A DNA stretch of 48,578 nucleotides from Clostridiaceae bacterium (lineage in GTDB: Bacteria; Bacillota; Clostridia; DSM-8532). Numbering within the stretch: position 1 is the first letter of the stretch; each line of letters begins with the position of its first letter. Shown in pieces: positions 60 to 2,261 of this stretch. Both the position numbers and the translations under genes were made by a program. The DNA is taken from NCBI GenBank assembly GCA_012518025.1, contig JAAYTP010000113.1, positions 1 through 48,578 of the forward strand, given 5' to 3'. The notes beneath the pieces are model-generated. The model was not told the origin of the DNA. It saw only the letters and a program-made list of their open reading frames with translations, and made no database searches.

Positions 60-2261
60 ATGATGGGGGGAGAATCTCAGAAAAAATTAACGGGTCAGAT
101 AAAAGCAAAGATACCGCTGCTCATAATAACATCAGCCATCTGCATTCTGCTTCTGGCTGTACTCATCATTCCGCTTCTGTCTGGCAAAACAGCTTTGGCA
201 AACATAGCAGTCCAGCCTTTTAATTTCTTCAACATCATTCTTATCCTTGCCGTTATTGCTGCTGTTTCACTGATGATTATAATTTCAAGGTTCTTCTCAT
301 CACTGGAGCTCATAAACAGCCATGCCAACATGCTGGCATCAGGGGAACTGAACATCAGTGATATCAGGTTGGACAAAACCAAGGGGCTCCTTGTATTGAC
401 CAGAGCCTTTAACGATATGAAATCCAACCTGCTCAGCTTTATTGAACTGACCAAGGGGAATGTTATAGTCCTGTCGGATTCCATTGACAAGCTTTCCAAG
501 AGCCTTGAGAGCAGCTATAAGGGCAATGAACATATTGCGGTGAATATCAATTATGTGGCTGAAAAGGCTCAGGAACAACTGAAAATAGTCAATCAAACCA
601 TTGAAGGTATCCAAGGAATCAGCATGCGGGTAGAGGCGATTTCCGCCAGTATCGCAAATATAGAGGACTATGTGGAGGACAACGTAAAGATCACAAAGTC
701 CGGAACCGAACACATGGACCAGTTCTATGAGCAACTCAATACCATTTCGGATAACCTGAACAACACCCATGAGTTTTTTGAGAATCTGAATTCCGAGATC
801 AAGGAAATCACAGAGGTCAGTGAGTTCATCATAAGGATCAGCGAACAGTTGAAGCTGTTGGGAATCAACGCCTCTGTTGAGGCTTCGAAAGCCGGTGAGT
901 TCAGTAAGGGATTCACTGTTGTAGCCAATGAGATAAACCAGCTTGCTGCCAAGACCAAAGAGGGCATTGCAAAGATCAAATCCATAGTTGAGAACATAAT
1001 CAATGGCGGCAGCATTGTCAGTGAGAGTATCAACCGCAGTGTAAACAGCTTTAATGAAAGCAAGGAAACCTTCAACACCGTGAAGGAATTCTTCCATACC
1101 ATCAACAGCCAAAGCACCCTTTTGAATAATGGTATGAAGGATATATATACTGAAATCAATCAGATCAACACCTTTACCAAGGAAACCAGTTCCAGGGGAG
1201 AGGCGCTTCACTCGGCATCCAATGAGATATCCTTAAAGACACAGGAGATTGCTGCAGTGACTCAGGAAGAGCTTGCTGAACTTGAGGAGATCAAGCATAA
1301 TACACAGCAACTCAACAATATGCTCACCAATATTCAGAACCTGACCCGCAAGTTTAGAACATCCATCATGCCGGTTGAGAAAGCCAGCCCAAGTAAACTC
1401 AAAATTGCATTTCTGGCACCCATGGATCATGCCTTCTGGCTATCAGTTCGTCAGGGTGTTCTCTATGCCCAAATGGAACTCGCAAACAAGAATGTCCATG
1501 TCGATTACTGCGGACTGCCAGCAGGCTATGATCAGAGTGATTTCATTAACGCCCTTAATGGCTATATCAAAGAGGGCTATGATGCCTTTATCGCCCCTGG
1601 TTTCTTTGTGGATTCCTTCCCTATCTTTAGCAAGCTCACTTCAAAAGGAGTCCCGGTTATCAGCTTTAACCACGATTTCCCCAGTGAAGTTAAGAGACTG
1701 GCCTATTATGGACCCGATACATATCAACAGGGGGTTGAAGCAGCTAAGCTTATGTATAATGCCCTGAATGGAAGAGGGAATGTTCTCGTAGCCCGCAGGG
1801 ATACCGGGGTAGGAACCGGTATTCACGAACAGCGCGCCAAGGGCTTTGAAGATCAGTTGAAGAATTACAAAAAGATGAATATTGTCGGGCATACACCTGT
1901 GGATGACACCGCTGAAATCGTTTATGCACAGGTAAAGGAATTCTTGGCCAAAAACAAGGATGTGGACGGCATCTTTGTAGCGGGCGGCGGACCTTCAGGG
2001 GCTGCCAGGGCTATCACTGAAGCCGGCTTGAAGGGTAAAGCCAAGGTGGTTTGCTTTGATCATAGCAAAGAGATATTTGAAGCCATCAGGGACGGTATTA
2101 TATATGCAGCCATCGGGCAGGATCCCTTCGGACAGGGGCATGATCCCATTATCTATATCTACAACTACCTGGTTGACGGGCAGAAACCGCCCAGCGATCA
2201 CATCCCCACTCGCTTTGATATTGTCGACTACCATAATGTGGACGATCTTCTGGAGTCTTAG
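60..2261 (+). CDS. Methyl-accepting chemotaxis protein fused to a C-terminal periplasmic-binding-protein-like domain
   Basis: 733 aa. Two hydrophobic segments (about residues 18-41 and 56-78) are separated by only about 14 residues, so there is no sizeable extracellular sensor. A HAMP-like stretch (80-130) follows, then a long helical MCP signalling domain with the hairpin tip near residues 263-300 (LLGINASVEASKAGE, then GFTVVANEINQLA). Residues about 445-733 resemble a type I sugar-binding protein of ABC transporters (Peripla_BP_4 type; starts KLKIAFLAPMDHAFW, later YGPDTYQQG and VDGIFVAGGG). It has no signal peptide of its own and lies on the same side as the signalling domain, so it should be cytoplasmic. 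GGAGG at 50-54 serves ATG 60 or ATG 63. The ligand is unknown. Domain calls are confident; topology is inferred. Confidence 0.88.
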   Translation: MMGGESQKKLTGQIKAKIPLLIITSAICILLLAVLIIPLLSGKTALANIAVQPFNFFNIILILAVIAAVSLMIIISRFFSSLELINSHANMLASGELNISDIRLDKTKGLLVLTRAFNDMKSNLLSFIELTKGNVIVLSDSIDKLSKSLESSYKGNEHIAVNINYVAEKAQEQLKIVNQTIEGIQGISMRVEAISASIANIEDYVEDNVKITKSGTEHMDQFYEQLNTISDNLNNTHEFFENLNSEIKEITEVSEFIIRISEQLKLLGINASVEASKAGEFSKGFTVVANEINQLAAKTKEGIAKIKSIVENIINGGSIVSESINRSVNSFNESKETFNTVKEFFHTINSQSTLLNNGMKDIYTEINQINTFTKETSSRGEALHSASNEISLKTQEIAAVTQEELAELEEIKHNTQQLNNMLTNIQNLTRKFRTSIMPVEKASPSKLKIAFLAPMDHAFWLSVRQGVLYAQMELANKNVHVDYCGLPAGYDQSDFINALNGYIKEGYDAFIAPGFFVDSFPIFSKLTSKGVPVISFNHDFPSEVKRLAYYGPDTYQQGVEAAKLMYNALNGRGNVLVARRDTGVGTGIHEQRAKGFEDQLKNYKKMNIVGHTPVDDTAEIVYAQVKEFLAKNKDVDGIFVAGGGPSGAARAITEAGLKGKAKVVCFDHSKEIFEAIRDGIIYAAIGQDPFGQGHDPIIYIYNYLVDGQKPPSDHIPTRFDIVDYHNVDDLLES

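Follow-up and report, generated by a model that had tools for sequence, protein, structure and literature searches.

Bacteria usually sense sugars outside the cell via binding proteins, and register their internal state only indirectly, through redox, the PTS or the proton motive force. In a stretch of 48,578 nucleotides from a Clostridiaceae bacterium (contig JAAYTP010000113.1, hereafter the window), the gene at positions 60 to 2,261 of the forward strand was identified by Pfam and orthologs as encoding a chemoreceptor (MCP) of 733 amino acids that carries a sugar-binding-protein-type domain, Peripla_BP_4, at its C-terminal end, which raises the question of whether such a receptor reads a chemical inside the cell. 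Our analyses suggested, with a probability of roughly 60%, that the protein is a membrane-anchored chemoreceptor in which the C-terminal cytoplasmic Peripla_BP_4 domain serves as the sensor for an intracellular ligand.

Domain architecture and predicted topology

All features of the gene lie on the forward strand. By eye, a ribosome-binding site (AAGGAGG, positions 48 to 54) was recognized 5 bases 5' of the ATG; beyond the stop codon, an inverted repeat with a T-run (AAAAGTGGCGTT GGAA AACGCCACTTTT, positions 2,307 to 2,334, no strand assigned) forms a likely transcription terminator. Pfam reported MCPsignal (PF00015) at residues 208-378 (positions 681 to 1,193; E 6e-22; 78.6 bits against a curated cut-off of 34.6) and Peripla_BP_4 at residues 455-704 (E 2e-43), the latter matching profile positions 8-254 of 258; together with the model, this places the type I solute-binding-protein domain at residues about 446-733 (positions 1,395 to 2,258). 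The predicted structure consists of two long coil helices (residues 111-275 and 286-430) with a tip region of low confidence, a linker of about 15 residues that is not hydrophobic (residues 431-445, positions 1,350 to 1,394), and a globular C-terminal domain. A HAMP-like region after the second membrane helix (ASGELNISDI...GLLVLTRAFNDMKSNLLSFI, positions 288 to 434) was assigned by eye from its motif, and HAMP itself was not reported by Pfam in this protein. Neither PAS nor any other redox domain was among its Pfam matches, and CZB and PilZ were absent both from these matches and from the other fusions scanned. The AlphaFold model of the binding domain (mean pLDDT 92.9) indicated a complete two-lobed sugar-binding-protein fold, and its best solved matches were glucose/galactose-, arabinose- and glucose/xylose-binding proteins (Z 31-34, up to 34.5, over 270-284 residues), with GanP, AraP and TmGBP as solved relatives.

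Hydrophobicity placed two membrane helices at the N-terminus, at residues about 19-41 (positions 114 to 182) and about 56-76 (positions 225 to 287), with core windows at 19-37 and 57-75 of Kyte-Doolittle about 3.0. The extracellular loop between them (residues about 42-55, positions 183 to 224) amounts to about 15-19 residues and is too small for a ligand-binding domain. The N-terminus is basic, with 4 K/R in 18 residues versus 1 in the loop, and an N-in/C-in topology is therefore predicted. No third membrane helix was found in the protein by hydrophobicity, all 19-residue windows past the hairpin tip being at most 1.12; nor did anything point to a signal peptide, a lipobox or an extracytoplasmic placement of the binding domain, which follows the cytoplasmic coil without a hydrophobic segment. 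In every anchored fusion, likewise, no membrane crossing was found C-terminal of the hairpin tip, the top 19-residue value (1.61) lying inside one binding domain. On hydrophobicity we thus reject a third membrane helix or export; given the two-helix topology and where the signalling coil lies, the binding domain is predicted to be cytoplasmic.

Two related fusions (L077, 1387-3318; L084, 1495-3438) show the MCP-Peripla_BP_4 arrangement and lack membrane helices altogether. Their starts are preceded by in-frame stops and by plausible ribosome sites, and upstream of neither ORF does an uninterrupted frame supply a membrane segment; in those proteins the binding domain therefore cannot be outside. 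They represent fully soluble receptors with a sugar-binding-protein-type domain.

These results bear on the initial annotation, which had described an MCP signalling domain followed by a whole type I binding-protein domain at residues 445-733, two membrane helices joined by a very short loop, and no further membrane crossing. Both Pfam domains are present, with Peripla_BP_4 close to full profile, the residue range was right, the loop is as short as described, and no helix occurs at residues 430-450, where its presence had been named as refuting evidence; the structure modelling proposed there returned a complete type I fold. Its step from topology to sensing of an intracellular ligand holds as to place, by the lack of a third helix, the N-in/C-in prediction and the helix-free relatives; the binding of a ligand is something that we infer.

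Distribution and ancestry of the fusions

The survey for other MCP and Peripla_BP fusions in the same order, also proposed initially, yielded about 35 clostridial proteins, 17 of them in the receptor's own clade. Both Pfam domains were matched in all 26 fusions scanned; in the anchored ones the membrane pair comes first, then the coil and last the binding domain. The same architecture was present at full length in all four other members of the genus that were searched (74-96% identity), in one member of another genus of the same family (60%) and in another family (40-46%), and because it recurs across genus, family and another family, an assembly or frameshift chimera is ruled out. Among 391 Clostridia genomes, the nearest extra-genus relatives of the C-terminal domain (36-48% identity) were almost without exception fusions, encoded by open frames of about 600-750 amino acids and with up to 4 copies per genome in one other family; the first unfused exported relative appeared at 39% identity, and most other unfused ones ranked after the fused. 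More distantly related fusions (about 20% identity overall) make up a second set, which is common in the receptor's family and occurs in at least four others. A phylum-wide search of other phyla at E 1e-40, with two candidates per genome scored, gave only the window's gene, which is a weak negative, and a plasmid search gave hits that covered no more than the binding domain (at most 38% query coverage), the annotated ones being transport binding proteins.

Some of the loci read showed further variation. Two fusion genes lie in tandem at L049:6695-11561 and their pocket residues are divergent, which suggests recent duplication with ligand change. Another fusion gene (L059:6998-8788), without the N-terminal membrane part and without the end of the binding domain, is probably a decaying copy.

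In the tree of fused and unfused domains, the receptor's clade formed one group (100/99) whose sister comprised exported lipoprotein-type binding proteins (100/98), with LacI-type regulators branching outside; the unfused relatives were top hits only, and exact sister groups could therefore shift with denser sampling. One origin of all fusions was rejected for the binding domain by the AU test (p-AU 2e-5 for a single clade) and was only borderline for the coil part (p-AU 0.058). Read most cautiously, these trees imply no fewer than two captures of binding-protein domains; that the captures were independent argues for a selected function. The initial annotation had spoken of the receptor's own ligand-binding protein, which proved too narrow: the trees support an exported, transport-type ancestry, and a former docking partner is not demonstrable.

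Neighbouring arrangements of the same domain types were seen as well. In G021 and G022 (L101, L102 and L103, with L027), a transmembrane MCP gene adjoins an exported Peripla_BP_4-type lipoprotein gene, a pairing that resembles the classic docking arrangement with its parts encoded separately. An exported CUT2-type sugar-binding protein (L063:8702-9793) adjoins permease and ATPase genes, and a 751-amino-acid ORF of the same locus (L063:10892-13144) with LacI DNA-binding, Peripla_BP_1 and SBP_bac_1 domains provides another solute-binding domain, apparently cytoplasmic, that is fused to a transcription regulator.

Ligand pocket, hairpin tip and rival readings

Pocket positions were compared with those of E. 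coli RbsB, whose contact residues we took from general knowledge of the ribose-bound structure. In the sequence alignment, the equivalents of F15, F16 (as W), R141, D215 and Q235 are kept, whereas those of N13, D89, R90, F164 and N190 are changed; a sugar-like ligand is therefore plausible and ribose in the same pose as in RbsB unlikely. An unchanged ribose site is argued against by this alignment, which names no ligand. The kept contact equivalents (F459, W460, R592, D667 and Q687) are present in all six close orthologs, and R, D and Q are kept in 15/15 members of clade B, an independent fusion. Across the receptor's whole clade, conservation at the ten RbsB contact positions did not exceed the average for the domain (p = 0.30). 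The R141/D215/Q235 equivalents are missing from one paralogous subclade, as would fit copies that either took on another ligand once duplicated or no longer bind one. Estimates of dN/dS (binding domain 0.10-0.19, coil 0.02-0.07, membrane part 0.05-0.35) point to purifying selection on both halves, strongest on the coil and least on the membrane part. An intact fold under purifying selection and in the cytoplasm makes an intracellular ligand the natural reading.

The kinase-control hairpin tip (residues 261-280, positions 840 to 899) is divergent: the ortholog group has SEQLKLLGINASVEASKAGE where ordinary receptors have DQTNLLALNAAIEAARAGE, with QLK for QTN and K for R, and the N, A, E, A and G positions of the canonical QTN...NAAIEAARAGE are kept. 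In this tip the receptor's clade departs from every other chemoreceptor compared, and its form is conserved throughout the ortholog group; tips close to the canonical form occur in clade B and in the membrane-free fusions. Because it is conserved, the tip change appears to be selected. It may alter or weaken coupling to CheA, and standard CheA coupling is therefore unsure. The genome search found a single CheA, with all five domains, plus CheR and FliG, so that a motility output, as the initial annotation proposed, is possible; one methylation-motif-like site (AVTQEELA) lies at residues 399-406 of the receptor. Gene neighbours vary between species and gave no metabolic context for the receptor. 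A glycerate kinase gene stands divergent to the receptor gene in two related species (L011:2753-4012; L012:4557-5696, Pfam-confirmed in the latter), and the window contig ends before the corresponding place; since this gene was seen beside the receptor in L011 and L012 only, and not beside it in the other relatives read, the neighbours do not name the ligand.

These observations bear differently on the alternatives to an intracellular sensor that drives motility. The protein could be a real intracellular sensor whose output is not flagellar motility, having a different output or only tuning the array via mixed assemblies; the divergent tip, conserved in the clade, and a long stem branch in the coil tree speak for it, yet most conserved tip residues are retained (N270, A271, E274, G279, F285, V287/V288), only one CheA was found in the genome search and the surroundings of the gene show no other candidate partner, and we regard this as doubtful. 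It is also unlikely, in our judgement, that the binding domain no longer senses a small ligand and has become a docking or dimerisation module, for example one contacting a transporter ATPase, an enzyme or a neighbouring receptor. Several changed RbsB positions, the average conservation of the pocket over the clade and the paralogous subclade without the R, D and Q contacts are what such a module would have in its favour, but the key contact positions are all kept in the receptor's ortholog group, and so are R, D and Q in clade B, which is a separate fusion.

A third possibility resembles energy taxis: the two membrane helices with their short loop would monitor the state of the membrane or of cell energy, and the binding domain would do no more than modulate this, in the manner of the C-terminal PilZ domain that adds to an N-terminal sensor in Azospirillum Aer and Tlp1 (PMC6406031). 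We consider this quite improbable, since evolution is fastest in the membrane region (dN/dS up to 0.35), L077 and L084 do without it, and no redox domain accompanies it. Export of the binding domain, or an ORF artefact such as a chimera, a frameshift or an inverted topology, has on its side that the sister group of the domain consists of exported lipoproteins; it is contradicted already by the missing third helix, the orthologs in many genomes, the membrane-free fusions and the presence of both Pfam domains in every fusion scanned, and is extremely improbable.

Proposed mechanism and comparison with known systems

The tip of an MCP hairpin is its membrane-distal end, from which the C-terminal helix leads back to the membrane. 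Under the preferred reading, a membrane-anchored receptor with an internal sensor, the helix pair with almost no extracellular loop would act mainly as an anchor, and the binding domain would hang beside the HAMP-like region at the receptor base, because the C-terminal helix of the antiparallel hairpin returns towards the membrane. If the two lobes closed around a small ligand, for which a sugar or a metabolite derived from one is the likeliest candidate, the C-terminal signalling helix would be pulled, and this could change CheA activity at the distal tip; the coupling to CheA, and from there to motility, we infer. In evolution, an exported ABC-type binding protein would have been recruited to the receptor C-terminus. 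As this fusion was made at least twice and a membrane-free lineage exists, the swimming machinery probably reads a chemical inside the cell. A broader proposal, which we put forward tentatively and at somewhat less than even odds, is a recurrent class in which exported ABC-type sugar-binding proteins were internalised onto chemoreceptor C-termini at least twice, placing the array under direct control of the intracellular concentration of a sugar or sugar-derived metabolite, with the tip re-tuned in the receptor's clade. If true, a receptor with an internal binding-protein domain reads one metabolite directly, and metabolism-dependent taxis thereby becomes testable with ligand and pocket both defined. 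Repeated capture, together with the membrane-free version, offers a natural experiment on a clam-shell domain driving a receptor from its C-terminal end.

The open-access literature yielded no paper describing an MCP with a Peripla_BP domain fused to its C-terminus; a survey of receptor ligand domains contains a single Peripla_BP_5 cluster (PMC8547431), and the architecture is very probably listed in domain databases. The binding-protein fold itself is familiar from three settings. In Trg with the ribose- and galactose-binding proteins, a type I sugar-binding-protein fold also feeds an MCP, but the binding protein is free, outside the cell, and docks on a periplasmic domain, whereas here it is covalent, inside, and joined to a receptor with no extracellular domain. 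LacI-family regulators (Peripla_BP_4/1), seven of which were among the nearer unfused relatives, likewise use the fold in the cytoplasm for internal sugars, yet their output is transcription and their branch is separate from the fused clade. CUT2-type exported sugar-binding proteins belong to the same domain family and form the sister group of the receptor's domain, but are exported lipoproteins for transport, whereas the fused form has no signal peptide.

Control by a C-terminal cytoplasmic sensor has precedents in TlpD (PMC12871147) and the PilZ receptors (PMC6406031), and by Pfam, hydrophobicity and the model our receptor shares their layout, in which the MCP coil is followed by a cytoplasmic sensor domain. 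In Helicobacter pylori TlpD, the sensor is C-terminal to the MCP coil and acts on the distal kinase interface through that coil; it is, however, a four-helix zinc-sensing CZB domain on a soluble receptor, in contrast to a two-lobed binding-protein fold on a membrane-anchored one. The PilZ-tailed Azospirillum Tlp1 and Aer and Azorhizobium Cbp1 (PMC6454048) are anchored MCPs in which a cytoplasmic domain at the C-terminus serves an intracellular signal, but PilZ binds c-di-GMP and adds to an N-terminal sensor, whereas here the C-terminal domain is the only candidate sensor. By this analogy, the receptor may work like the TlpD and PilZ types but is not one of them. C-terminal cytoplasmic chemoreceptor sensors (CZB, PilZ) and cytoplasmic binding-protein folds (LacI family) were each already known, and it is for their combination that we found no open-access description.
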